From assembly GCA_011033025.1 (NCBI GenBank), contig WFMF01000013.1, forward strand, positions 682,001 through 746,000: 64,000 nucleotides of DNA. The letters run 5' to 3'. How positions within the stretch are numbered: position 1 is the first letter of the stretch; each line of letters begins with the position of its first letter. This DNA comes from Beroe forskalii. Lineage: Eukaryota > Ctenophora > Nuda > Beroida > Beroidae. Both the position numbers and the translations under genes were made by a program. A model generated the notes under the pieces. That model had not been told where the DNA came from. It saw only the letters and a program-made list of their open reading frames with translations, and made no database searches. Positions 3,001 through 64,000 of this stretch are shown one piece after another.

Positions 3001-5376
3001 GTCATTATAGATTTACCATAACTATTAAAAAATTCTGATACCGTATTATCAACACTGAATTCCATCACTGCAGATAAAGGCGGACAAAAAAACCAAAAAT
3101 TTCTATTTCAGGCAAATTTCCCAAATTGTCCTGCAGAAAATGCCCGCAAGCCATTCAATAAAGTTATAGTCCAAACGTTTGTTTTTCATCTTGCTACTAG
3201 CTTTTGCTTGTGAACGAGGTTGCGGCGCAATCAAAGTGTGCTGCCGAGTGAGCTACAGTGAAACCAAACTGCAAGAAATTTCTTGGGAACTGCACAAAAA
3301 TATTATCTGCACCTATTTGAATCTCCATCTGATTTCTATGGAAATTTTTTATGGCACCTACGTGATACAAATTTTGTGATGAATATAATCTAATACAGCC
3401 ATATCAACTCTTACATAAACAGTTAACTCATCTATAAACACATTAAATTACAGTTACACAAACAATAAACTAACAATGAGCTTACATCTCCTTACATGAA
3501 CTTAAAGGCTAAAGCCATTGCTTTCCCTATTATTTTCTTTTTGTTTCGTTGTTTTCATGATTGTTCACTACCTTAGATTTTGGTCTTTGGGCAATTCTCG
3601 CCTAAACTTTTTAAGTTTAATTTGTTTTTCCACTCTTTGAAGTTGCTATCGCTTCATTGTCTCCTTGTTGTAAAGTTTAAAAAAACTTTACAACACTACT
3701 TTATACAATTAAATTTGAGGTTGATGACGCAGTATGATTCCGAAAATATTCCCGATGTAAGTTTATTAAATCAGATTTATTTATCAAAATCAGCTTCTTT
3801 AATTTTGTCGCAGAGACTAAAATCATCAGTAATCAGTATCAGTATGTGACTGCCGACTAATAAACAGTGATCCGATCATTCAGTTACAGAAGAAAAATTG
3901 ACTTTGAGATTGAGTGTGTCCCATAACCAAGGACATTGTCTATAACGTCCGGTTAACCAGGTCCTATGGCTAGCGAGGTTCCTCGATAGGCAAAAAATAC
4001 ATCTCCTTCAAACCTTGTTTAATTTTTCGCTTGATTGAAATATATTGAGCTTGTTCTCGCTTTGTTGTTTTTTGAATAAAAAGTGCCATAAGAATGATAC
4101 CTCATTTAGAAAACGTTGTTCTGAAACTCAAATCAAAATATCTCTCCAAGCCGCCTATAATTCTCGCGGGATCTATTACTATAAACCTAGGTTTAATTTG
4201 CCATTGTGTACACGTACCTACGGGCTACGGCCTTTCTCTGCCACTCATTAAAGGGACGGAAACAATGTCCACTTTTTGTCCCAAGGCTGACATTGTCCCC
4301 ATTATCATGTGAGTTGAAACAGAAACTTTACAGAACACGGGAACAAAACAAAGGTTACAGTACACTGGAAGTGGTAATTAGACCGTTTCAGGACCACCTC
4401 GTATCTTTGCAATATGTAAATTCAAGTTACCAAAGTTCTATATACATTGTTGGGGGTGCGAGAACACGTTCTTACGAGCGCAACGCTTACCTACAATCCT
4501 CTATACATGATCGAAGTCCTGCATTTTTTGCATCTCTATTGGTTAATTCTACGATTGATACAACTTTAAATTACTATTGAAACTTTACTCAGTCGTAATC
4601 AAGCAAACTTTTCCGAGATTTACTTAGATTTAAAATAGATTATAAAACAAACCTTCCCGGGATTAATTAGTAGTTAAACAAACCTTAATTTGAGCCTCTC
4701 ACGAAACAGCTGCAGTTGTTTTGTAAGCCATTTAATAATGACTTAATAATGATGCTCATTACCACCCCGCAAACTATTTAGGAGATATTGGATACCAAGT
4801 GGTAGTGGACATTATCACCAATTACAATAGTATGTTTTATGTTACTCTCGGTTAGAATGTACTATGTTAAATTTGATTGTACTTGTAGTTTTTGCATTTC
4901 AGCATTTCAAGTTGTTTAATCGGATTAGAACAGAATGGGCTATTGATGGTGATTCGTTATTTCTTTATTTACAATGTACGTTCAAACTTCACAGTAGCAA
5001 TAATTAACAAAATATTTTAACTCATCATTGAGGCCTTCTGAGACATAAATAAGTCGTCTAGCTGTAGGAAATCACCAGTATCTGTTATTTTCCTTCCTCT
5101 AATTTCCGTAAATTGAGGTTCCACTATCGAAATTGAGGCCTGCCTCGATTGACACATTCTGTAACTACCTTGCCAACTACATCTTGCTTTGTTATCAGTT
5201 ATAGCCTATTTCTCGTTTACAGTGATGAGTGGCAACCGTTAGCATGCAGTGTTTTTACTTTTTAGTTTAGCTTGAACCTTGCAGTTGCTCAATTTGTGAT
5301 CACTGTAGTGCATCCTGCTCTAATTACTAAAACACGTGTAAGTAAACATCATGATACATGGCACTGAAGGTTAATC
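1..5376. other. Gene-poor flank with no recognised gene
   Basis: I read both strands and found only short, low-complexity open frames without recognisable motifs or consistent splice sites. There is a short GC-rich hairpin near 350-375. The missing C-terminal exons of the CPSF2 gene could in principle lie here on the minus strand, but I looked for its conserved I-I-V-H-G-type segment and did not find it. The stretch ends at the hairpin upstream of the Stealth gene. Confidence 0.5.
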
Positions 5377-5448
5377 GAGCGATCCGTCTAGGCCAGTATC
5401 ACGCCAGTACCGCACCAGTACCGTGATACTGGCCTAGACGGATCGCTC
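5377..5448. repeat. Perfect 26-bp inverted repeat (hairpin)
   Basis: Positions 5377-5402 are the exact reverse complement of 5423-5448, with a 20-nt loop that itself repeats CCAGTACC. The hairpin ends 82 bp before the start codon of the Stealth-type gene at 5531, so it lies in that gene's promoter or 5' leader. It could be a small MITE remnant or a structured leader element; the sequence does not decide between these. Confidence 0.8.
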
Positions 5449-5530
5449 AATTTACCGATTGTAGTACCACTTTCACCCTTTTACTGACACAATCTTTCCC
5501 TTTAAATTTATTACGGTATGCCCCTTCAGG

Positions 5531-7483
5531 ATGGGGTTCCGATACGGGAGCAGGAGGTTATATCTCTTAGCAGGGTTCACTATTACCATCCTAGTGCTCC
5601 TAACCAACCACCCGACCATCAGAGATCAGGATAGCCGTGAAACGAAATTTTCGGAGGTTTTTATACCACGATTATAGGTGTTGAATGATGATTGATGGCC
5701 CGACGACTCGACTCTATAAATAAATACTATTATTTATTATTATGCCTGTCACTTAAACCATAAATCTAATAAAATCATCTGCTCAGATTAACCTCGGGAA
5801 CGAAAGTAGTGCCGGTTTTCCTGAAGACTCCTCAAACAAAACCGAACAGTCTCACATCGTGAGCTCACGCGAAGAGCTCGACAGATTGAAATCCGTAGAA
5901 AACCAAACTTCATTTTTTGAGAATATCGTAGCAAAACATAGCTTGAAAAGCATCAGTACTTTGGCTTCCACAAACGGAACTGCCACAAATCAGAATCAAA
6001 ACCTTAACGATGACAATGAAAGACAACATTTGGATGAAGAGGAAAAGAGAAATGGTGGAGGGCCAATAGACGCGGTTTACCTTTGGGTGAATGGGTCAGA
6101 TCCAGTTTTCATTAAGAGGCTTAATCATTACAAAGAAGTCTTTAATGAAGGAGAACCATTAGCAGAAAGTTCCGTCGGTAAAAGTCGTTTTAAAGATAAT
6201 GGAGAGCTTTTCTATTCCCTTAGATCACTCAACATGTATGCCCCATGGATCCGTAATGTCTATATTGTCTCATCAGACGGCCAGGTGCCCTCGTGGATGG
6301 ACATCACTAACCCACGGATCAAAATAATCCCAGATTCCACAATTTTTAGGAACCAAAGCCACACCCCAACATTCAGTTCTCCTGCCATCGAACTAAACAT
6401 GTTTAACATTCCTGGCTTATCAGAGAACTTCATTGAGTTTAACGATGACTGGTTCCTCGGGCAACCCGTTACTCCGCAAGATTTCCTGACGCCGGATGGG
6501 GCGTACAATATCAGGCAAGCATGGCCAAGTCCTCAGCGATGCAGACCGACTCATGATAACTACGCAAAATCGCTGTGCCATGTCAACGAAATTTATAATT
6601 CTCTTTACGGCAGAGCAGTAAGAAAAGTCATAGCACATGCTCCCACGATGTTTAATAGGGAAATTATAAAGAATTTTCGCTCCAGGTAACAACCAGAATT
6701 GAATTTTACGAGATTTCGTACATAAATAGGACGGAATACAAGCTCAATGAACAATTAAATGTCTCTGTCGAAAATAGAAATTGCTAAGATTTAGACGAAA
6801 TTGATTATATGCTATCGCTTACCTTAATTATCAAACTATCCTATAACTTCCACAGTTTCCCACAAGAAGTTGAGTCCACATCTTCCAAGCACTTTCGCAG
6901 CCCTGACGATCTTCAGTTCCAGTTCGCTTATTATTACTTCCTTATTAACGAACCCAGATTTCGTAGTCTGACGGGCGCTTTGTCGGCAATCGATACCAAT
7001 GCAGATAAGATCATCTCATGGGATGAATTAGAACTATTTCTTCATAGTGATTCCGATCACCCAATATCAGATCCCACGGTATGGGAGATGCGAGACGCGT
7101 TTACGAAATGCCAAAAGGACAAAAACGAGAAGTTACTTAGCCCCGATGAAATTATGTCGTGTCGCACCATTTCGAATAGCCTTAACAGTAAGATTGTAAA
7201 AGTGAAGAGGTACAAGCATAAAATAATTCAGCAAGCAGACGTTTTCTTCAGTATGATAACGAACGATTTATCATTTGTCTTAAAAACGTTTAAACAAATT
7301 CGAACTTCCCCGAATAAGTTCGTATCTCTCAATGATGACAGAAATCACGAGAACAAAAACGATGGAGAGATTTCGAGGATATACACGAACTTTTTAGAAG
7401 ACATGTTCCCTATTCCTAGTCCTTTTGAGCTTCCGAAAGGCGAACGAAATCAGTTTAATTATCTTAAAGATTCCAATTTATAG
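5531..7483 (+). CDS. Compact Stealth/GNPTAB-like N-acetylglucosamine-1-phosphotransferase (3 exons)
   Basis: Exons are 5531-5656, 5787-6685 and 6856-7483. Their phases agree and give 550 residues. The first exon starts at ATG 5531 and encodes a basic N-terminus plus a hydrophobic signal anchor (about residues 10-26), so a type II Golgi membrane protein is inferred. Visible blocks are Stealth CR1 (IDAVYLWVNGSDP, about 136-148), CR2 (about 175-280, with FNDD at 260-263), CR3 (about 300-335), CR4 (FRSPDDLQFQFAYYYFL, about 356-372) and an EF-hand loop (DTNADKIISWDE, about 388-399). The C-terminal MFPIPSPFELP segment is the one known from GNPTAB. The family transfers GlcNAc-1-phosphate to glycans; in animals it makes the mannose-6-phosphate tag of lysosomal enzymes. 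Unlike vertebrate GNPTAB, the Notch-like and DMAP modules between CR2 and CR3 are absent, as is the C-terminal membrane helix: the frame stops just after the conserved FELP segment. The first donor (GAG/GTTTTT) is weak and is the least certain junction. The in-frame codon at 5859 is GTG, inside exon 2, and is not a start. Confidence 0.87.
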
Positions 7484-28771: not shown

Positions 28772-28989
28772 AATGGGGGTGGCAAGTTTGGTATACCGGA
28801 CAATGGGGGAGCCAAAATGCCTCCCCTTAATCTTGGTATACATCATAACAGAGTTAACCATACCCAGGCTCGCCCTACACTTGGGCTAACCTCTAAACAC
28901 GGGCTCCCCTATACACCGCTCCCCTTAATCTTGGGCTTACCCACTTCCCTTGGTCTCACCCCCCTAAACAAGGGATCGCCCATACCAGA

Positions 28990-29340
28990 CTCGCCCTTAT
29001 CCTGGGCTATACCGCATATGGCTCCACCCTACCTTGGGCTTCTGAAATGCCTTGGGCTAACCCCCAAACACGGGATCCACCATACCAGACCAACCCTTAT
29101 CCTGGGCTATACCGCATATGGCTCCACCCAACCTTGGGCTTCTGGAATGCCTTGGGCTAACTCCCAAACACGGGATCCACCATACCAGACCAACCTTTAT
29201 CCTGGGCTATACCGCATATGGCTCCACCCTACCTTGGGCTTCTAGAATGCCTTGGGCTAACCCCCAAACACGGGATCCACCATACCAGACCAACCCGTAT
29301 CCTGGGCTATACCGCATATGGCTCCACCCTACCTTGGGCT
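28990..29340. repeat. ~100-bp higher-order repeat units, outer left arm of element 1
   Basis: A ~100-bp unit (CCTGGGCTATACCGCATATG...CACCATACCAGACC) repeats about 3.5 times, at roughly 28995, 29100, 29200 and 29300, with few differences. The mirror-image set is at about 32470-32830 in the right arm. These longer units lie outside the ~21-bp repeats, so the arm is graded from long units at the tip to short units near the core. Confidence 0.85.
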
Positions 29341-29459
29341 CCCCCTCGCTTTAAATATGGGCTCCCCTCCGTTATATTGGGCCACCCCATTCACTCGCCC
29401 CATGCCCTCTCCCCCCTAGTTTGGCTCCCCCATGATCAAAACCCGGACTACCCCCGTCT

Positions 29460-30416
29460 TATCTCGGGCTCCCTCATTATAACTCGGGCTACCCCCATAC
29501 TAACTCGGGCTACCCCTATACTAACTCGGGCTCCCCCCCCCCAGTATTGACTCGGGCTCCCCCATGATAACTTGGGCTCCCCCTTGATAACTCGGGCTCC
29601 CCCCCATTATTACTCGGGCTCTCCCCCATGTTATCTCGGGCTCCCCCATACCAACTTGGGCTCCCCCACACTAACTTGGGCTCCACCGTACTATCCGGGC
29701 TCCCCCATACCAACCTGGGCTCCCCCACTATCAGGGCTCCCCGGCTAACTTGGGCTCCCTGTACTATCTGGGCTCCCCCACTAACTTGGGCTCCCCGCTA
29801 AATTGGGCTCCCCCGTACTATCTGGGCTCCCCCGTACTATCTGGGCTCCCCCGCACTAACTTGGGCTCCTCCGTACTATCCGGGCTCCCCATACCAACTT
29901 GGGCTCCCCCATTATCAGGGCTCCCCCGTGCTAACTTGGGCTCCCCGTACTATCTGGGCTCCCCGTACTAACTTGCCTAACCCAGGCTCCCCCGTACTAA
30001 CTTGGGCTCCACCGTACTATCCGGGTTCCCCCATACCAACTTGGGCTCCCCCGTACTATCAGGTCCCCCCGTGCTAACTTGGGCTCCCCCGTACTATCTG
30101 GGCTCCCCCATACTAACTTGGGCTCCCCCGTACTAAATTGGGCTCCCCCGTACCAACTTGGGCTCCCCCGTACTATCTGGGCTCCCCCATACTAACTTGG
30201 GCTCCCCCTTACTATCAGGGCTCCCCCATACCAACTTGGGCTCCTGCATTATAATTCGGGCTCTCCCGTATAAACCCAAGCTCCCCCATACTAACTCGGG
30301 CTCCGCAATACTAACTGGCGCTACCCCATAAGCCGCTCGGGCTCCCCCCGTATTAATTCGGGCTTCCCTTGATCATAACTTGGGCTCCCTAATAATATCT
30401 CGGGCTCCCCCATGAT
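29460..30416. repeat. ~20-23-bp GGGCTCCCC tandem array, inner left arm of element 1
   Basis: About forty degenerate units of the form GGGCTCCCC(C)NTACTAACTTG follow one another. Variants inside the unit include CTATCTG, TATCAG and CCAACTTG. The same array in inverse orientation fills about 31280-32450. Unit length varies by one to a few bases, mainly in the C-run. Confidence 0.9.
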
Positions 30417-31279
30417 CAGTGGTCGACCGGGGGCGGGATCTCAGCCGGGGCCGGGGATGGTGATTCAGGCCAGGGGGGAAGACTTGAATTTGAATTTGAC
30501 CTGGTATTTAAGCCATGGATAAAGAAAATTAGGGCCGGAGTACTTTTCAGACAAGAAATGGAATGCAATATATGCGCATGAAAAAACTGACAGGTTAGGT
30601 ACTCAATACACACGCAAAATCACTGAAATTCAATGATATGTAGGGGTTAGGAGGCGGAATATATTTCTCGTATTTTTCAACGAATCTGGCCATAGCTAAA
30701 CAAGTCTGTCCCTGGAATTAAATGATATGCGGGGGTCTGGGGGCGGCAGCCCCCAGATTCCAGACGACCAGAGCAAATAGAATACGTTAACCTCCGAAAA
30801 CACGAAAACATAGTCGGCCTATTTTTTAGTCAAAATTCGGATTTCGACTATAAATTCGGCAAACCATAATTATTACCGACTATAGAAAGAGCAACCTGGT
30901 CTGAAAATGGATTGTTATGACGTCATTCTAACGTTCGATATCATTTTGGGAGAACTAAGATGGTTGTAGGGATGTGCTCAGTCAGCCATACTAATATTTA
31001 TGATTTTCGATAATCAGAAATCAAAGAGATTTAAGAAAAAACGCTTTGAAAATCGAAATTTGAGGCTATAAAAATCGCCAAAAATGCCGACTCAAATTTT
31101 GGCCGACTATATGCCAAGACTATATTTTTACACGACTAAAATATTGGAGGTTAAGGTATTCGCCTCTTTAGTATTTCAACTCAATTTCTTGTATTTTTCA
31201 AACGAATCTGGTCGAAGCAAAATCAAGACCGTCACTGAAATTCAATGATATGCAGGGGTCTGGGGGCGGCAGCCCCCAG
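30417..31279. other. Core of foldback element 1
   Basis: No transposase or other coding sequence is recognised. A module containing GTATTTTTCAACGAATCTGG (30671 and, with one extra A, 31190) and AATGATATGC plus a GGGGGCGGCAGCCCCC hairpin (30721-30756 and 31243-31279) is present twice as direct repeats. A third, partial copy (AATGATATG) is near 30631. The core is thus internally duplicated as well. Confidence 0.6.
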
Positions 31280-33050
31280 AAGCCCAAGTTAGTACGGGGA
31301 GCCCACCAAGGGGGAGCCCAAGTTAGATTAGTACGGGGAGCCCAATTTGACAGTAGTGGGGAGCCCAGTTAGTGCGAGGGAGCCCAAGTTGGTATGGGGG
31401 AGCCCTTATTTTGGGAGCCCAATTTGGTATGGGGGCCCCGCCCAAAGTTGAGTACAGGGGAGCCCAAGTTAGTACGGGGAGCCCAAGTTGGTATGGGGGG
31501 AGCCCTGGTGCATGGGAGGTAGATTGGTATGGGCCAAAGTTAGTACAGGGCCCAGGATTGGTACGGGGAGCCAAGTTAGTGTGGGGAGCCCAGATAGTAC
31601 AGGGAGTAAGTTGGTATGGGGGGCCCAGGATACAGGGGGGGGCCCAAGTTGGTATGGGGAGCCCAGATTGTGGGGGGCCCAAGATTAACAAGGGGGGGGA
31701 GCCCAAGTTAGTACAGGGGAGCCCAGTTGGTGTGGAGCCCAGAGAGGGGGAGCCCAGATAGCCCAAGGGAGAGTACGGGGGGGCCCAGTTAATACGGGGG
31801 GCTGGGTTAGTGCGGGGAGCTCAGATGGTACAGGGGGAGCCCAGATAGTACGGGGAGCCAGTTAGTATGGGGAGCCCTTGTTAGCATGGGGGAGCGCCCC
31901 AGATGGTATGGGGGCCCAAGATAGTTTGGTGAGCCCAAGTTAGTATGGGGGAGCCTGAGTTGGTTTGGGGAGCCCAAGGGGGGGCCCAAGTTGGTATGGG
32001 GGAGCCCAAGTTAGTATGGGGAGCCCGAGCATGGGGGTTTGGGGGGAGCCCCAGATAGGACGGGAGAGCCCAAGTTAATATGGGGGAGCCCAAGTTAATG
32101 GGGGGAGCACAAGTAGTACAGAGCCCAAGTTGGTACATGGGGGGGTGCAAGTGTGGGGAGCCAAAGTTAATACGGGGGAGCCCGAGATAACAGTGGGGGA
32201 GGCAAGTATAATGGGGGGGCCCGAGTTATCAAGGGGAGCCCAAGTTATCATGGGGAGCCGAGTTGATGGGGAGCCCTGGGAGCCTCACTGGGGGGGGAGC
32301 CTGAGTTAATATAGGAGTAGCAGTTAGTATGCGGGTAGCCCGAGTTATCATGAGGGCGAGATAATATGGGGGTGGTCGGGGTTTTGATCATGGGGGAGCC
32401 CAAACTAGGGGAGAGGGCATGGGGTGAGTGAATGGGGTGGCCCAATATAACGGAGGGAGCCCATATTTAAAGCGAGGGGAGCCCAAGGTAGGGTGGAGCC
32501 ATATGCGGTATAGCCCAGGGATAAGGGTTGGTCTGGTATGGTGGATCCCGTGTTTGGGGGGTTAGCCCAAGGCATTCCAGAAGCCCAAGGTAGGGTGGAG
32601 CCATATGCGGTATAGCCCAGGATAAGGGTTGGTCTGGTATGGTGGATCCCTGTGTTTGGGGTTAGCCCAAGGCATTCCAGAAGCCCAGGGTAGGGTGGAG
32701 CCATATGCGGTATAGCCCAGGATAAGGGTTGGTCTGGTATGGTGGATCCCGTGTTTGGGGGTTAGCCAAAGGCATTCCAGAAGCCCAAGGTAGGGTGGAG
32801 CCATATGCGGTATAGCCCAGGATAAAGGGCGAGTCTGGTATGGGCGATCCCTTGTTTAGGTGAGACCAAGGGAAGTGGGTAAGCCCAAGATTAAGGGGAG
32901 CGGTGTATAGGGGAGCCCGTGTTTAGAGGTTAGCCCAAGTGTAGGGCGAGCCCTGGGTATGGTTAACTCTGTTATGATGTATACCAGGTTTAGGAGAAGT
33001 CCGTGTATCCAAAACGGATACAGGGGCTCCCATAACTTGCCACCCCCATT

Positions 33051-54589: not shown

Positions 54590-57538
54590 CACGGCCGATT
54601 CGAAGTAAGTTTAATTTGGACAGATTTACACCCTAGCAGGACACCTTATGAATTATTTATATTAGTCATCACATTTGTGAATTGACTTAAGTATTTTGAA
54701 GCTTTTTGAGGAGGCAGCAATCAGCATAAGAACATAGATTCCATCAAAACGTTCATTTCCATAAACTTTTGCAAAATCAATGGTACAAACAAATCGAAAA
54801 GATACAATCACGAAGTGAATATTAAAGACACTCACATTCTCAAAAATCCATTCACATTTGAATGATAATTAGATAATTGTACAAGTACAACATAATTGGT
54901 AATGTGTAAATCATCAGCAACATACCAATACATCGGAATGTGAACACTGAAGGACCGACCAAAGTGTACAATATCAAAATGAGAACGAAAGAACTAGGTA
55001 CCACTCATGGTGTACATCGACATTTGCAATTGCAATTACTCTCAAGATTGTATTGCAGCCACATTCCATTCTATACCTGTGTTACGAGCAGACGTCACGT
55101 GACATACTTGTCTAACATATAACGGTTTGCAAATGTACACAGTAATTACAATGTGTTGTGTTGATTGGTATTTTGTGTTCGTTTTTGTGCATGTGTTCAT
55201 TTGCTTAATACAGTAAACGGGTCAGGTAAAACAGGGTAAATAAAGGTAAATAAACACTAAACAGGGTAAATAAACAGGGTAAATAAACAGGGTAAATAAA
55301 CAGGGTAAATAAACAGGGTAAATAAACAGGGTAAATAAACAGTGTAATCATGTTTAATTAAGTCTTGTAAAATTCGGTAACTCAGCGTGTCAGAATCCGA
55401 ATATAAATCTAGAGATGGACTTTCGAAATCTACTGATGGAGTTTTGAAATCTACTGATTGAGTTTCTAGAGAGAGACTTTCGCGCGTGTTTATATAACTC
55501 CATCTCTGGTTTCGTAACTCCATCAGTGATGGTTATACGTATGCAGCACGCGCGAAAACAACACGGCCGTGTATATAATCTACAAACTACAGTACAGAAG
55601 TGCTGTAGTTTGGACCGTGCATATCTCAGGGTTAGGAAAGGGCAACGTAATAAGAACCAATATACGTGCATTCATATACAACGTAAATATGCAAGATCAT
55701 TTCATTATATGTATTATGTAAAAAACATTCCAGTAAACTTGCTTAAAGGATTATATGATTTTTAATAATAATTTAAGGCCTGAAAGTGAAAGGTAGTGCT
55801 CAAGGGCTAACATGGGTCATCAGTTGGGCAAGGGTGATTGTGCAGCACAAAGTGCCTGAGGAGAAGGCCAGATGTAACAGTATCTCAGCACTTCGTGACT
55901 TCGTGGCACCATATTATCTTGTATTGCATCAAGACCACTTTGTAAAATTATACAAATAAAATAATACAATATCATTAGTTCACTAATATCGATGGGCATC
56001 AGTAAGTTAGCACGCTTGACGCTCGTGCAAATTATGAATAGAAGGTGCTAACTTACACGGGGGTGGTACAATAAATATAATAACAAAATCAAAGAAACTT
56101 TCTCTTGACACAAAACCGTATTCTGTTGAATACGGATGCTGACTGTTTCTTTGATATCAGACATATTATATTTTAATGGATAGGAAATGATTCAAACGTG
56201 GTAGCGTTACTGCGTTACCGTGGCTTTGCTCTCTGATATTTCATGAACCGACCAAAAATTCAAAACATTGAGTGGTTAATAAGACGTTTAGAATATCAAC
56301 AGTTTAATATTGTGACAACTTGATCGATACTGAAGGACAAGATCGAAGTCATAAAAAGCACCAGACTGAATAATACTCATGCACGTCGCATAACCTAGTT
56401 GATACGATATAGTAACGACAATTCGGCGATAACAGCTGAAAATCATCTCAAACACAAGAAATATGATAACAAGTATTATGACAAATAAGTATCTTATCAC
56501 TTTGAAAGCGAAACTAATAGTAATTATCACCGAGACGACGTCGAGACGATTTGCACAGTAATTTCTCTATTTAATAGCAGTGCTAGATCAAAAAAACAGT
56601 AGTTTTGAAATGCTACTTTATTTCCGCGATGCCGTGGTCATATAAAGCAAATTATGAAGGCACAAGGCCAATCTTTCCTAGCCAAATATGATTAGATTGG
56701 AAAACCTGTCTAACATTTACCGTGGTATAGCTGGTAAAGCGGAAATAGCTAAATAGGCATTAGGCAAACTTTAATAATGTCAACCAAAATATTAGAGTTC
56801 TTGGTTTTGATATAGTGTTAAGATTACAATATAAATCCAGAGAAGATTACAATAGATCCGTTGGCCAGTTTAGCAGTTTACCGGCTATCCAATATCCTAG
56901 AGCAATTCTTAGAAAACCAATTGGGATAATGATAATGTCATGTTTTTGAGTTATATATTTGAAGATCTATTTAAGCATTAAAGACGAAATCGGTCGTTTC
57001 CAAGAAAAAACAAGTAACTATAACTGTAAGCATGGGCTAATCCTGTCAGTGAATATAAACTGCCATGATACTTTGTGCAGTCGCTCGAGAGCTAAGGGTC
57101 TTTTGATATAGAGGACATTCCTAAAAAGTGTGTCAAATTCTCTTGAGGGTACCTTTAAAGCGAAAGTTATGTAAATTATCTGAATCAATTTTTCCGTGAT
57201 TAATTAGTTATATCGAATATTCCGTTTCACGAATTTCTGGATTCTCATGATCTTAGAATCTTGTAAATAGCTGGTATTTATGATTTGTACCACGTTGTAC
57301 CAGGAATAAAAGTTATATCCCGCAACCTAAATGGAAATCGAGCCACATTTACTCATTTAGGTACATATAGTACGTATCACTGAAAAGTAAATTAGTTTTG
57401 CTCACTTTATTATTAAGTCAAAACAAGAAAAAATGTGCGATTCAGGAAAATACTTTCCAGTTAAAATTCAAGGTTGTCTTTGGATTTGCTCATACAAGAA
57501 AATCAAAACGCATTCATCGCAGTGTGTATGCTTGTATG
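54590..57538. other. No recognised gene; MITE end and 13-bp minisatellite
   Basis: Besides the minisatellite at 55262-55345 and a MITE-end-like segment at 55390-55545, I see only AT-rich sequence with short open frames lacking motifs. Confidence 0.45.
55262..55345. repeat. 13-bp minisatellite CAGGGTAAATAAA
   Basis: Six perfect units start at 55262, 55275, 55288, 55301, 55314 and 55327. A changed unit follows at 55340 and degenerate ones precede from 55232. Confidence 0.92.
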
Positions 57539-58126
57539 TAATCGTGTCATAAAACAGTGACAACTTTCCCTTTCTATTGCCCCCATCTTCATCCCATAAT
57601 GCCTGGAATAAAATTCATAGCAAATCAATGAGAATGCGGTGCAGTTCCGTGCAGTAAGAGGGATACTGATATCTGACCCTGTGATCACCCTGGACTTCCT
57701 CCGCCGAACTTGGGCTTCACCTTCGTAGCTTGTAATGAACACAATTTTAATCAAATTACAACTTTATTACGAGATTTATAACTTTATAACGACAATGATT
57801 TATAACTTTATAACGACAAATGACTGGTTATTGTTAGATGTTAGACGATTGAACGCAATGTCACATGTGAGATGTCCAGTTCTTTAAAAGTTAAACTAGT
57901 GATTTTAAACTTGTGATTTTATCAGTCACGCTTTCTGTCAATGCCCAATCATGCAAAAACTCAAATAAACTGAAGTAAGATGTCGATATTTAGCATTTAA
58001 AAATTCTCAAATAACTTAAATGAGCGCTTGTATTGGGAAATGGGAGCTGTCACATACGTATTACGTCTTCAATTGGGAAGAGGAAATTTGTGGGTAATGC
58101 TGATGATGACAGAGGGAAGGAGGGGT
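57539..58126. repeat. 588-bp direct repeat, copy 1
   Basis: This segment is repeated at 58986-59573 with, as far as I can read, no difference; both copies are exactly 588 bp. Identity starts at TAATCGTGTCATAAAAC and ends at GGAAGGAGGGGT. The two copies abut the 3' and the truncated 5' end of the LINE fragment between them. Confidence 0.9.
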
Positions 58127-58985
58127 CATCATCAAAAGAGAGGCCGGACCCGAGGGTCCGCAAGAGGATAGTCCCGGAGTGGGACTGTGCCTACCTCTAG
58201 TCGCCGAGGCGACGGGGGGTGAGGGTGAAAGGTGATGGAGGTGGTGGAGGGTGAAATGAGGGTGTGGCTAGCGAGGGGAGGATACCTTTACCAATACAAT
58301 ACCAGATACTTCAGAGCTATCGGAGAGATGAGTAGATGCTATGTCACCCCTGTATTGTCCGCCTCCTCCTCTGTTCGCTGTAGTCTTTTGGTTTGGAGTG
58401 TGTAATTGATCAGTGTCCATACTGTTGTTGTCCATGATGTCGTTAATGGAGTCATAGTATGTCCCGAGTGTGTTGCCTCTGATTCTCATAAAAGCAGGGC
58501 ATTGTCCAATGAAGTGTGCCACTGTCTCCTCAGTGTCAGTGCAGTAAGGGCAGTTTGGTGTGTCAGCGCGTGTTATTCTGTGCAAGTGTTTGTTCAGTCC
58601 TATGTGTCCTGTAATAATGGAGATAGCAGTTCGGTACCGGATACGGTTGCCAGTGTTGTTGTTATGTGCGAAAAACCTTCTTCTGATGGTTACCTATGAT
58701 CATGTCAGTGTGAGCATGTTTGTTGGTGATCCACCTGTCGTGGCTGAGGTTGGTTACCTTGGTATTGATTAAGTGTTTGATGAATGAAATGGGGACAAGG
58801 CTGGTGACGGGGTTACCATCTTTGGTGCCAGCCTTGGCAAGCTGGTCTGCTTTCTCGTTTCCCCAGTGTCCGATGTGGGCTTTTATCCATCTGACTTGGA
58901 CTGTGTTGTCATGAGCTAGGGAGGTGAGTGACTTGTGACAGTCTGCAACTGATTTGTTCCTGTGGATTCTGTTGGAAAGAGCTTG
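58127..58985 (-). mobile_element. 3' fragment of a non-LTR retrotransposon with RNase H domain and zinc knuckle
   Basis: On the minus strand, starting at 58985, the frame encodes the second half of an RNase H domain (LQALSNRIHRNKSV, then VRWIKAHIGHWGNEKADQLA; the HxGxxGNExAD signature is clear). After a frameshift near 58685 it continues as RIRYRTAISIITGHIGLNKH and a C-x2-C-x8-H-x4-C zinc knuckle (CPYCTDTEETVAHFIGQC). A GC-rich 3' untranslated part follows, ending in TGATGATG. RT, endonuclease and the first half of RNase H are missing, as in a 5'-truncated LINE insertion. The RNase H domain places it among I/R1/LOA/Jockey-type elements, unlike the other LINE in this window. Confidence 0.85.
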
Positions 58986-59573
58986 TAATCGTGTCATAAA
59001 ACAGTGACAACTTTCCCTTTCTATTGCCCCCATCTTCATCCCATAATGCCTGGAATAAAATTCATAGCAAATCAATGAGAATGCGGTGCAGTTCCGTGCA
59101 GTAAGAGGGATACTGATATCTGACCCTGTGATCACCCTGGACTTCCTCCGCCGAACTTGGGCTTCACCTTCGTAGCTTGTAATGAACACAATTTTAATCA
59201 AATTACAACTTTATTACGAGATTTATAACTTTATAACGACAATGATTTATAACTTTATAACGACAAATGACTGGTTATTGTTAGATGTTAGACGATTGAA
59301 CGCAATGTCACATGTGAGATGTCCAGTTCTTTAAAAGTTAAACTAGTGATTTTAAACTTGTGATTTTATCAGTCACGCTTTCTGTCAATGCCCAATCATG
59401 CAAAAACTCAAATAAACTGAAGTAAGATGTCGATATTTAGCATTTAAAAATTCTCAAATAACTTAAATGAGCGCTTGTATTGGGAAATGGGAGCTGTCAC
59501 ATACGTATTACGTCTTCAATTGGGAAGAGGAAATTTGTGGGTAATGCTGATGATGACAGAGGGAAGGAGGGGT
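58986..59573. repeat. 588-bp direct repeat, copy 2
   Basis: This is the second copy of 57539-58126, lying at the truncated 5' side of the LINE fragment. The LINE frame appears to run on into it on the minus strand, but the RNase H homology begins only at the junction, so the upstream residues are unrelated flanking DNA. Confidence 0.9.
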
Positions 59574-60099
59574 ATTAAAGTATAAAGGGAGAAAATTATC
59601 TAAAATGAGCAAAACGTTATGCCAACGTATTAATTTGGTACTCTTAGACTTAAAACTAAAAATATGCCCGTGATCATGATAACAATAATAATCCAAACTA
59701 TCAAGTAAAGTACTATTCAAGGTGAGAAGTACGTATTGTAAGTACCTCAAACCGGGTACCATACCTACTTCTCTAATCTCATGAAAGGGCATAAACCAGG
59801 TATATTATGGAAGTTGATGAAAAATTCCTTTCAAAGAAGACTATGAATGGGGTTGGCAAGTATGGGAGCCCGGAATGGGAAGGCATTGTCTCCCCTATTC
59901 CCGGGATCACAAATACAGAGTTCACCGTACGGAGGCTTCCCTAAACCTGGGATCACCTCTTATCACGGACTCCCTGTACACTGCTCCCCTTAATCTAGGG
60001 TCTCGCCCATACCAGACTCACCCTACCTTGGGCTTCACCATACCAGGCTCCACCGGACCTCGGGCTTCACCAATGCCTTGGGACAACCCCGATACAGGG

Positions 60100-60580
60100 G
60101 CTCACCCGTACCAGGCTCACCCTTACCTTGGGCTTCGCCATACCAGGCTCACCCGATCCTCGGGCTTCACGGATGTTCTGGGATAACCCCGATACAGGGG
60201 CTCACCCGTACCAGACTCACCCTTATCTTGGGCTTCACCATACCAGGCTCCACCGAACCTCGGGCTTCACTGATGTTCTGGGCTCACCCTCAAACATGGC
60301 ATCACCCATACCAGGCTCACCCTTACATTGGGCTTCACCGTACCTGGCTCCACCTTATCCTGGGCTACACTGATGTTCTGGGCTATCCCTGAAACATGGG
60401 ATCACCCATACCAGGCTCACCCTTACCTTGGGCTTCACCGTACTTGGCTCCACCTAATCCTAGGCTCCACCATAACCTGGGCTCACCCTGAAACATGGGA
60501 TCGCCCATACGAGGCTCACCCTTACCTTGGGCTTCACCGTATTTGGCTCCACCTTATCCTGGGCTTCGCCATAGCTTGGG
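60100..60580. repeat. ~100-120-bp higher-order units, outer left arm of element 2
   Basis: Units of the type CTCACCCTTACCTTGGGCTTC followed by ACC-rich text and GATGTTCTGGG repeat about six times between roughly 59995 and 60580. The inverted set is at 63380-63960. They differ from the ~100-bp units of element 1 in sequence but share CTTGGGCTTC and ACCATACCAG. Confidence 0.85.
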
Positions 60581-60899
60581 CTCCCCCACACTTATTTGGG
60601 CTCCCCTACCAACTCGGGCTCCCCTATGATAACTCGGGCTCCCCCATACTAACTTGGGATCCACCTATCAACTCGGGCTCCCCTATACTAACTCGGGCTC
60701 CCCCACACCAACTTGGGCTCCTATACCAATTTGGGCTCCCCATACCAATTTGGGCTCCCCATACTCCCATACTAACTAGGGCTCCCCATACTTACTCGGG
60801 GCTCCCCTACCAACTCAGGCTCCCCCATACCAACTCAGGCTCCCCCATACCAACTCAGGCTCCCCATACTACCTCGGGCTCCCCATACTAACTCAGGCT

Positions 60900-61480
60900 C
60901 CCCCATATTAACTCGGGCTCCCCGTGCAGTACGGGCTCCCCATACCAACTTGGGCTCCCCGTGCATCGGGCTCCCCCATACCAACTTGGGCTCCCCGTGC
61001 TGTTCGGGCTCCCCCATACCAACTTGGGCTCCTCCCTGTTCGGGCTCCCCATACCAACTTGGGCTCCCCGGCTGTTCGCTCCCCACCAACTTGGGCTCCC
61101 CGTGCTGTTCGGGCTCCCCATACCAACTTGGGCTCCCCGTGCTGTTCGGGCTCCCCATACCAACTTGGGCTCCCCGTGCTGTTCGGGCTCCCCATACCAA
61201 CTTGGGCTCCCCCGCAACTTGGGCTCCTGTTCGGGCTCCCCATACCAACTTGGGCTCCCCGTGCTGTTCGGGCTCCCCATACCAACTTGGGCTCCCCGTG
61301 CTGTTCGGGCTCCCCATACCAACTTGGGCTCCCCATATTCGGGCTCCCCATACCAACTTGGGCTCCCAAGTTCGGGCTCCCCATACCAACTTGGGCTCCC
61401 CGTGCAACTCGGGCTCCCCATACCAACTTGGGCTCCCCGTGCTGTTCGGGCTCCCATACTAATTTGGGCTCCCCATACTA
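60900..61480. repeat. Homogenised ~40-bp dimer array, inner left arm of element 2
   Basis: The pair CATACCAACTTGGGCTCCCC + GTGCTGTTCGGGCTCCC repeats about a dozen times with very few changes. It is a dimer of two ~20-bp units, much more uniform than the arrays in element 1. The inverted counterpart, with GGGAGCCCGAACAGCAC, is at 62710-63010. Confidence 0.9.
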
Positions 61481-61974
61481 ACTCAGGCTCCCCCCATACA
61501 ACTCGGGCTCCCCCATACCAACTCGGGCTCCCCATACCTCGGGCTCCCCCATACCAACTCAGACTCCAACACACTGTTAGTGCTGCCGCGTACAATCTTG
61601 GGCATCCATGCACTATTTATACTCCCCATGCCTATTTTGGACTTTGGGATCCCCCTTCCTTTCAGTATAAGGGCTCTCTATTTGACTCAGGCTCTCCATC
61701 TACGTACGTCGGCTCTCCACACAGTTTTAAATGAAAAACATTATGAATAGTACTAAATCAATGGATTCAATTAAATTAAAAAATTAGAATCAGGAATCCC
61801 AATGAATTAATTCTAAACAGTATTAGGAAATTTGAATAACATGATTATTGACTATTAAGAGAACTTTGGATAATTGATAAAATCTTTGTAAGCGTCACTT
61901 CGTGCTTAGGAAAAGCCCGCCTCTGACACCCCAGAAAACCAGTAGATTAGGAAAGGGGCACGAGGGCGAGCCCT

Positions 61975-62233
61975 CGTTATTCAAATTTTCCAGCTCGCAA
62001 TACCCTGAAAGCTCTAATTGGGACTGCTCCATGCGGGGCAATATCCTACGTATCAGAGGCCTTTCCGGGTTCACTGTCTGATAGAGAAGTTGTGTTATCC
62101 AGCAAAGTCTTGGACCAGATGGTTCCAGGGGATCTAATTCTGGCCGATAAGGGCTTCTCGGTGCAAGACATTTGTCCTGATGGTAATTATACGTTAATTA
62201 AGGCGTACCCTTTTTCTATTTTTTCATTCACCT
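61975..62233 (+). pseudogene. DDE_Tnp_4-type transposase fragment in the core of foldback element 2
   Basis: An open frame from about 61975 to the stop at 62231-62233 reads YSNFPARNTLKALIGTAPCG, then AISYVSEAFPGSLSDREVV, then SSKVLDQMVPGDLILADKGF and SVQDICPDGNY. The blocks N-T-x-K-x-L-I-G, S-D-R-E and G-D-x-x-x-A-D-K-G-F are those of DDE_Tnp_4 (Harbinger/ISL2EU/Kolobok-related) transposases, and the D of ADKGF is the expected second catalytic Asp. The family match runs out near GAT-G/GTAATT, a possible splice donor. The first Asp, the last catalytic residue and the DNA-binding part are absent. It is read as the remnant of the element's own transposase, or of one captured by it. Confidence 0.8.
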
Positions 62234-64000
62234 AGTTTGGAACGATTTTTGTCTTCAAAAGCATCAATTTGAGTCCGACCCAAACAGGCCCGAAGCCAGG
62301 ATTTTTTCCGGAGGTACGGGGCCGAGCCCCTGCAAAGGGTTTAGGGGGAGCCCCGAAAAATTTTAGGAAATAAGGATGCTGCAGGATGATTTTTACAATA
62401 AAGAAATGTACAGGAAATGTACAGGACGATATTTGTCAAAATTAGAGCATCGAAAGTTGGTATGGGGGAGCCAATCAAATATAAATGTTGGTATAAAACT
62501 ATAACAGTCAGAATAAGATTAAACTAGTACGGGGAGCCTATTTTACCATGGGGGAGCCCAAAGTATATGATTATGATTATGGGGAGTCAAAAAAAAGTTT
62601 TATTCTAACTACAGAACGGGAAATGGTAACTTTTCTTCCGAGGGGGCTGCAGCCCCTAGCCCCCCTCTGTCTGCGGGCCTGGGGGAGCCCAAACTATTAC
62701 TTGAATTTATACGGGGAGCCCAAGTTGGTATGGGGAGCCCGAACAGCACGGGGGAGCCCAAGTTGGTATGGGGAGCCTTATGGGGAGCCCAAGTTGGTAT
62801 GGGGAGCCCGAACAGCACGGGGGAGCCCAAGTTGGTATGGGGAGCCCGAACAGCACGGGGGAGCCCAAGTTGGTATGGGGGAGCCCGAACAGAACGGGGG
62901 AGCCCAAGTTGGTATGGGGGAGCCCGAACAGAACGGGGAGCCCAAGTTGGTATGGGGGAGCCCGAACAGCACGGGGAGCCCAAGTTGGTATGGGGGAGCC
63001 CGATTAGAACGGGGGAGCCCAAGTTGGTATGGGGGAGCCCGGGTTAGTATGGGGGAGCCTGAGTTAGTATGGGGGAGCCCGAGGTAGTATGGGGGAGCCC
63101 GAGTTTAGATATGGGGAGCCCGAGTTAGTATGGGGAGCCCGAGTTAGTATGGGGAGCCCGAGTTAGTATGGGGAGCCCGAGTTAGTATGGGAGTATGGGG
63201 AGCCCAAATTGGTATGGGGAGCCCAAATTGGTATATGGGAGCCCAAGTTGGTGTGGGGAGCCCGAGTTAGTATAGGGGAGCCCGAGTTGATAGGTGGATC
63301 CCAAGTTAGTATGGGGAGCCCGAGTTATCATAGGGGAGCCCGAGTTGGTAGGGGAGCCCAAATAAGTGTGGGGAGCCCAAGCTATGGCGAAGCCCAGGAT
63401 AAGGTGGAGCCAAGTACGGTGAAGCCCAAGGTAAGGGTGAGCCTCGTATGGGCGATCCCATGTTTCAGGGTGAGCCCAAGTTATGGTGGAGCCTAGGATT
63501 AGGTGGAGCCAAGTACGGTGAAGCCCAAGGTAAGGGTGAGCCTGGTATGGGTGATCCCATGTTTCAGGGATAGCCCAGAACATCAGTGTAGCCCAGGATA
63601 AGGTGGAGCCAGGTACGGTGAAGCCCAATGTAAGGGTGAGCCTGGTATGGGTGATGCCATGTTTGAGGGTGAGCCCAGAACATCAGTGAAGCCCGAGGTT
63701 CGGTGGAGCCTGGTATGGTGAAGCCCAAGATAAGGGTGAGTCTGGTACGGGTGAGCCCCTGTGTCGGGGTTATCCCAGGGCATCCGTGAAGCCCGAGGAT
63801 CGGGTGAGCCTGGTATGGCGAAGCCCAAGGTAAGGGTGAGCCTGGTACGGGTGAGCCCCTGTATCGGGGTTATCCCAAGGCATTGGTGAAGCCCGAGGTC
63901 CGGTGGAGCCTGGTATGGCGAAGCCCAAGGTAAGGGTGAGTCTGTTATGGGCGAGACCGGGTATAGAGGTGAGCCCCGGACAATCGGGGGATCCCTAGAT

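Follow-up and report, generated by a model that had tools for sequence, protein, structure and literature searches.

Foldback elements, in which long inverted arms of tandem repeats surround a core, matter as potential rearrangers of chromosomes, and the account of Galileo in PMC3688188 describes chromosomal inversions made by that element. They are often found without an enzyme, as is Tetris (PMC4079207). Foldbacks of the Mutator and P types are already known (PMC3169594, PMC4079207; the latter cites further exceptions), and for Galileo secondary THAP binding sites have been shown within the arms (PMC3688188). Here we describe a foldback family, FB-1, one copy of which lies at the end of a 64,000-nucleotide stretch of the genome of the ctenophore Beroe forskalii (contig WFMF01000013.1, positions 682,001 to 746,000; this whole stretch is called the window). 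We consider it very likely that FB-1 is a non-autonomous foldback derivative of a cut-and-paste transposon of the ISL2EU group, which belongs to the PHIS superfamily and is related to PIF/Harbinger.

The definition of ISL2EU used here is that of Han et al. (2015, PMC4482050), where these elements are described as duplicating AT on insertion, with A before and T after it, as having ends that usually start with GG, and as found in animals only; most, not all, of the autonomous candidates treated there carry a second open reading frame (ORF) with a YqaJ exonuclease domain. The same paper assigns different duplications, or no duplication, to PIF/Harbinger, Spy, Pangu and Nuwa (TWA, none, ANT, CWG or TNA; PMC4482050). 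The genome searched is a 216-Mb assembly, whose COX1 gene (contig C1134, translated with code 5) shows 96% identity along the full query to a cluster named Beroe forskalii; C-numbers denote its contigs and L-numbers the regions taken from it, L009 being the window copy plus the sequence beyond the window end. FB-1 is the family of the element at 59849-64120, and FB-2 a related family, that of the element at 28775-33047.

Termini and insertion footprint of FB-1

Complete FB-1 copies have ends that both start with GGGGTTGGCAAGT and then diverge; in most copies there is an A-type end, ATGGGAGCCCGGGAATAGG, and a B-type end, AGGGGGAGCCCATGTATCC. The sequence GGGGTTGGCAAGTANGG is found 160 times in the genome at one mismatch or fewer, against 0 for the reversed control, and chance is therefore excluded. 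The core query gives at least 47 genome matches (40 of 124 candidates scored), and 20 regions covering core matches were taken for comparison; the last 88 bp of this query also match places elsewhere at ~85% identity (14 rows) and are therefore a repeat that is more widely dispersed. An earlier note on this DNA, made from its letters alone, had pointed to a foldback element here, and the searches with terminus and core now reveal a multicopy foldback family. Pairing of ends was done within the 100 of the 160 terminus matches that were listed. Among these, 19 pairs of opposite ends less than 10 kb apart could be picked out by eye, their lengths spanning 181 bp (C215) up to 7.9 kb (C170); an element on C358, the largest of the paired ones read, measures 8.8 kb. 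Across copies, the arms comprise roughly 1.3-3.4 kb of tandem repeats. It should be added that the listed termini cluster strongly on contig C170 (1.17 Mb, 0.5% of the assembly), where 13 of the 100 lie at ~485-742 kb.

The two bases outside the ends are the same on left and right in all 18 of the paired copies compared, being AT in 17 and AC in one (L018); L027, excluded as a duplicate of L026, likewise has AT at both sides. The AC copy suggests that the dinucleotide is duplicated host sequence and not part of the element. Just outside the dinucleotide, A predominates at the left and T at the right, with A at -3 in 42 of 53 terminus matches, at least four of which are not element ends. That 2 bp of target are duplicated on insertion is confirmed by empty sites. 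At C170:125278-125537, the sequence equals the joined flanks of the insertion at C170:618328-624981 in 259 of 260 bases, with a single AT; farther out, the empty and the filled place agree at 99.2% across 1.3 kb on the left side and at 97.2% across 178 bp on the right side. The C215 copy (L032) sits inside a high-copy repeat, and all four unoccupied copies of this repeat that were taken read GTAATCA-AT-TTTTGG. Around the C390 copy the flanking DNA is itself a short tandem repeat; in units of it that are empty the sequence is TTA-AT-TGAAAA or TTA-AT-TGTAAAA, as judged by eye.

Some of these host sequences deserve a word of their own. The two C170 stretches (L043, C170:123000-128500, and L023), 0.49 Mb apart, differ by a 6.7-kb foldback insertion, and are either duplicated sequence or a pair of haplotypes that the assembly has fused. 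The C215 host repeat is palindromic, has ends GGGATCGTTCACATATTACGTAATCA and is of high copy number (1984 first-look genome candidates). L026, L027 and L028 (C536, C662) have near-identical flanks at separate places, and were apparently duplicated along with their surroundings.

Through this footprint a foldback lineage is linked with one group of enzymes, ISL2EU. The duplication is of 2-bp AT within A|AT|T, the ends start with GG both in FB-1 (GGGGTTGGC) and in FB-2 (GGGGGTGGC), and the host, Beroe, is an animal. The AT duplication together with the GG ends argues for ISL2EU and against PIF/Harbinger, Spy and Mutator: PIF/Harbinger would have a 3-bp TWA duplication where 2 bp are seen, Spy would insert within AAATTT with no duplication whereas comparison with the empty sites shows AT duplicated, and a Mutator foldback would have an 8-10-bp duplication and a Mutator-like (MULE) transposase in place of the 2 bp and the DDE_Tnp_4 core found here. 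Of the Harbinger/ISL2EU/Kolobok-like origins offered by the earlier note, it is ISL2EU that the 2-bp AT and the GG ends fit.

Layout of the window element

Comparison with other copies indicates that the window element runs from 59849 to ~64120, that is, 120 bp past the window end. It had previously been placed at 59846-64000; the start is now set at 59849, where GGGG follows AT, and matched sequence continues to 64120. Long inverted arms of tandem repeats (~1.7 and ~1.4 kb) flank a core, as a foldback should have. Among 211 inverted pairs in 59000-64000, none is longer than the one that joins 60021-60586 to 63370-63935 (566 nt, 99% complementarity), and this pair, together with the arrays, bears out the foldback architecture first noticed in the earlier note. 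Each arm is built in two tiers, with 100-bp units arrayed on the outside and 19/38-bp units on the inside, and the repeat motif changes strand between the two halves: of GGRCTYC there are 57 copies in the left half and one in the right, and of its counterpart one and 46, respectively.

Reading from the left, the target-site dinucleotide AT, with A before it, occupies 59847-59848, as the sequence and the family-wide pattern indicate. It is followed by the left terminal block, with an A-type end, GGGGTTGGCAAGTATGGGAGCCC... (59849-60005, + strand), which is common to other copies. Tandem-repeat detection gives a left outer array of ~5.6 units of 100 bp (60006-60567, +) and a left inner array of 19/38-bp units (GGGCTCCCCATACCAACTY; 60598-61567, +). 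The repeat-free core, measured by the array ends, is ~1.1 kb (61568-62712, +), longer than the 725 bp initially given for it, and is common to other copies, which mostly have one left edge and varying right break points. Beyond it lie the right inner array of 19/38-bp units (62713-63378, -), again from tandem-repeat detection, the right outer array of ~5.6 units of 100 bp (63389-63955, -), supported by the tandem repeats, which cover 63389-63951, and by the inverted pair, and the right terminal block (63956-64000, -, with ~120 bp further outside the window). Relative to other copies, this right, B-type end is without its last 33 bp, the terminal GGGGTTGGC included. The window copy is therefore not intact and has a single good end.

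A scan of the window against Rfam at the gathering threshold gave no match, and neither did a comparison with NCBIfam. To the left of the element, a 300-bp direct repeat of 100% identity occurs at 57537-57836 and 58984-59283, 1447 bp apart; the adjoining ORF at 58662-59201 resembles a retrotransposon RNase H (by eye).

The transposase exon

Within the core, 61951-62232 forms an open frame of 94 amino acids that matches PF13359, DDE_Tnp_4 (E 5.2e-16, 59.1 bits vs a cut-off of 24.8) over profile positions 19-93; a sub-threshold match to DDE_Tnp_1 is all that the core shows besides. The DDE_Tnp_4 segment that had been read from the letters is thus supported by a protein-profile search. The exon itself is placed at 61994-62182 (+) from the sequence, the Pfam match and the borders of related genes on C389 and C547; it has splice-like flanks, TTTTCCAG and GTAATT, and contains the aspartate of an ADKGF motif, which we take to be the second catalytic residue of DDE transposases. 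A genome search with the foldback exon gives 14 rows, 12 of which lie in 10 FB-1 elements (L009-L017 and L023; L017 is cut by a contig end, and L014 has a degenerate right arm). The remaining two are the C389 and C547 genes, the nearest paralogues in this genome, which are 54% identical to the foldback exon. In the assembly searched, the exon is confined to foldback elements.

The C389 and C547 genes both have HTH_Tnp_4 above the cut-off and a coiled-coil-like start, and share the same two exon borders with the window copy (the comparison among the three being by eye). A query joined from three loci retrieves 30 proteins from the protein database that are 31-50% identical to it; all have DDE_Tnp_4, and 20 of the 30 also have HTH_Tnp_4. 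Seven of them are named to species (four tick, two spider, one fish). The C389 locus (L029 2214-6339; L031 931-1221) is ISL2EU-like, and a decayed-looking foldback end at ~5197-6190 lies between the gene and a YqaJ-like exon (by eye).

There is also a piece ending in a stop codon in the C358 element that appears to be the last exon of the gene native to the foldback; it meets the arm only a few bases from where its start would be expected. A decayed piece occurs on C527, with no arm repeats within the 6 kb examined. Set against the ISL2EU ORF with its DDE, HTH and THAP domains, the element has one DDE exon and the C358 copy an apparent last exon; HTH_Tnp_4 is found in the C389 and C547 genes only.

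Nine copies of the exon differ at 12 nonsynonymous and one synonymous variant codons, where 2.9 to 1 would be expected without constraint; the decayed L014 accounts for five of the 12. The ADKGF aspartate is lost in L015 and L017. Non-triplet indels are present in L010, L014 and L016, an extra codon in L011 and L013, and none in the other four. The exon therefore appears to be passively carried, not maintained, a passenger rather than a working gene.

A locus on C957, where 4 kb separate an end from a DDE_Tnp_4 gene, was considered as an autonomous candidate and rejected, since it consists of a foldback arm with an unrelated element nearby. The inserts nested in L023 and L024 were likewise rejected as the missing transposase: that of L024 is a separate element, and that of L023 is absent from other cores. 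The L024 element (L024:3819-5324, 1.5 kb) has ends GGCCCCACAAGCTCTAG and a probable TTAA duplication, and an ORF in it shows weak similarity to P2RX7_C (14.8 bits vs a cut-off of 23.5).

Variation of core and arms among copies

Most FB-1 cores have a common left edge and differing right break points, which reads as a pattern of internal deletion. The core is inverted relative to the ends in two of the 20 elements (L022 and L025), and L026-L028 have a core piece in both orientations. Flipped and two-way cores of this kind would fit arms that recombine with each other or serve each other as primers for repair. There is no general sign that the two arms within a copy are homogenized: the best 31-mer partner of a left arm is its own right arm in two of 15 elements, and mean left-right arm identity is 0.906 within and 0.896 between elements, figures that are approximate because tandem arrays make the alignments rough. 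The two arms of the window copy are unusually similar over 566 bp.

A second foldback family in the window

The second foldback in the window, FB-2 (28775-33047), has ends GGGGGTGGCAAGTT with AT on both sides, and ~1.46-kb arms that are 83% complementary and laid out in the same two tiers as those of FB-1. Genome-wide, there are 246 matches to its terminus pattern at two mismatches or fewer (control 0), some of these being FB-1 ends. The FB-2 core (30420-31275) has only the arm repeats in common with that of FB-1, and no DDE_Tnp_4 match. This core recurs at 86-92% identity in three C132 places between such ends, and one portion of it belongs to a repeat that is dispersed widely. Since the FB-2 core is without the exon, the arm system must be older than the transposase exon or separable from it. 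The earlier note had named, as evidence that would speak against its reading, a fragment common outside foldbacks combined with unrelated cores in other copies; the fragment was not found outside foldbacks, and an unrelated core is found in the related FB-2.

Origin of FB-1

The history that we propose is as follows. An intron-containing DDE_Tnp_4 transposase gene would once have lain between the FB-1 ends. These ends would have become kilobase arms through the amplification of 100-bp units and of 19-bp units of the GGGAGCCC type, perhaps by slippage, unequal exchange or recombination, and internal deletions would have taken most of the gene, leaving one exon, as in the window copy, or the last exon, as in one rearranged copy. 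The exon would then be a relic of the original transposase. An ISL2EU transposase would cut at the GGGG ends and insert at an AT flanked by A and T, duplicating the AT; the copies may have been moved in trans by such an enzyme recognizing GGGGTTGGCAAGT ends. The arm units could offer the enzyme additional sites to bind, a role that has been shown in Galileo and suggested for Tetris (PMC3688188, PMC4079207). On balance we also favour, with less assurance than the origin itself, the wider proposal that ISL2EU has independently evolved a foldback form in a ctenophore, with at least two families, each with more than 100 ends at the mismatch levels searched, and with arms that would be arrays of transposase recognition sites.

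Several observations weigh against an ISL2EU derivation. FB-2 is the chief of these: its core has no recognizable transposase sequence in a PF13359 search, so that the exon by itself is no proof of origin; the footprint is independent of the exon. No full-length transposase gene between GGGGTTGGCAAGT ends (100 of the 160 terminus matches listed) was found in searches of the assembly with PF13359 (35 matches, part of them inspected), the foldback exon, the last exon and a pair of exons from farther upstream in the C547 paralogue, this pair giving four rows, on C547 and C389 only. The full-length DDE_Tnp_4 gene within the same termini that the earlier note had looked to did not, then, appear, and the FB-1 copies are therefore classed as non-autonomous. 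The YqaJ-like exon beside the C389 gene, on the same strand, would suit ISL2EU, a weak point given that it falls below the Pfam cut-off (E 0.015, 16.0 bits vs 22), and a genome search with PF09588 (YqaJ) gave 0 matches at E <= 0.001. The second, YqaJ ORF of ISL2EU is thus missing from FB-1, as would be expected of a deletion derivative. The THAP domain of ISL2EU was not seen in the exons scanned. Element ends were sought for the C389 and C547 genes, putative ISL2EU members, and not found. The last exon in C358 is oriented opposite to the rest of that core. Finally, when the 19-bp unit is compared with the four ends, 37, 46, 59 and 71 of 1000 shuffles score equally high; the resemblance of arm unit to terminus is weak, and at most suggestive.

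The absence of the exon from FB-2, and the nested insertions present in the FB-1 cores of L023 and L024, could be accommodated if a foldback of another superfamily, for instance Mutator, had by accident picked up a DDE_Tnp_4 exon of some transposon resident in the genome; most foldbacks are assigned to Mutator in the paper on Tetris (PMC4079207). We regard this as unlikely, as 2-bp AT duplications and GG ends fit a group with DDE_Tnp_4 enzymes and do not fit the 8-10-bp duplications of Tetris or the 9-bp duplications of Tm1 (PMC4079207, PMC3169594). More doubtful still is an origin in another PHIS group or a neighbour of it (PIF/Harbinger, Spy, Pangu, Nuwa or Kolobok). DDE-type transposases are described as alike across the PHIS groups (PMC4482050), and the DDE_Tnp_4 gene on C957, which stands by a Myb/SANT-like ORF (by eye) and is Harbinger-like, lies near a foldback arm; against this, the duplications given for the first four of these are TWA, none, ANT, CWG or TNA (PMC4482050), and what is observed is 2 bp, mostly AT. 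The remaining candidate in that series fares no better on its footprint. Kolobok duplicates TTAA.

That these sequences are a palindromic satellite or an artefact of assembly, and not a transposon, we find scarcely credible: the tandem repeats are GC-rich and the listed termini cluster on C170, but the copies are spread over many contigs and have defined ends, 2-bp duplications and empty sites. A different question, compatible with the ISL2EU origin, is what moved the copies. It is possible, if rather less than an even prospect, that the transposase came from another ISL2EU element, of the C389/C547 type, the foldback's own exon being irrelevant. The exon is without sign of selection, yet at least one insertion looks young, judging from the joined flanks that agree in 259 of 260 bases; on the other side, the C389/C547 exon is only 54% identical, the termini of those genes were not found, and recognition of the ends would have to be shared. 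An ISL2EU derivation of FB-1 remains the explanation that we prefer.

Comparison with known systems

In the literature searched, from which Repbase and subscription papers were outside the scope, no link between ISL2EU and foldbacks was found, nor any foldback from a ctenophore or any that combines a foldback element with PIF. If the present proposal is true, FB-1 is the first foldback lineage linked to the PHIS superfamily, and the second case, after Galileo, in which arm repeats can be tested as binding sites; the repeat units, ends and empty sites described here provide material for the idea that arms are extra binding sites. The footprint also supports the published view that arms of the foldback kind have evolved more than once, on transposons unrelated to one another (PMC4079207, PMC3169594).

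FB-1 resembles ISL2EU, as described in PMC4482050, in its AT duplication with flanking A and T, its GG ends, its DDE_Tnp_4-type sequence and its animal host. It differs in the length of its arms (~1.3-3.4 kb, against terminal repeats of 6-259 bp in the 25 families of PMC4482050), and in that no intact two-ORF copy was found in the assembly searches. With Tetris, from Drosophila virilis, it has in common a non-autonomous foldback form and internal tandem repeats that may have arisen from the terminal domain; Tetris differs in its 8-10-bp duplications, in its placement by the authors in Mutator, and in complete copies described as without conserved ORFs (PMC4079207). Tm1, a Mutator/Phantom foldback of root-knot nematodes, is alike in its variable composite arms, its derivatives resembling miniature inverted-repeat transposable elements or formed by deletion, and its transposase remnants, and differs in its Mutator-type enzyme, its 9-bp duplications and the one known copy with a putative transposase (PMC3169594). 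Galileo, of the P superfamily in Drosophila, shares with FB-1 long foldback-like arms with internal tandem repeats and an identifiable cut-and-paste transposon, and differs in superfamily and in its shorter arms of 0.5-1.2 kb (PMC3688188). FB-1 is best read as comparable to Galileo in the P superfamily and to Tm1 in Mutator, an instance of the already known kind in which a foldback is built on a transposon.

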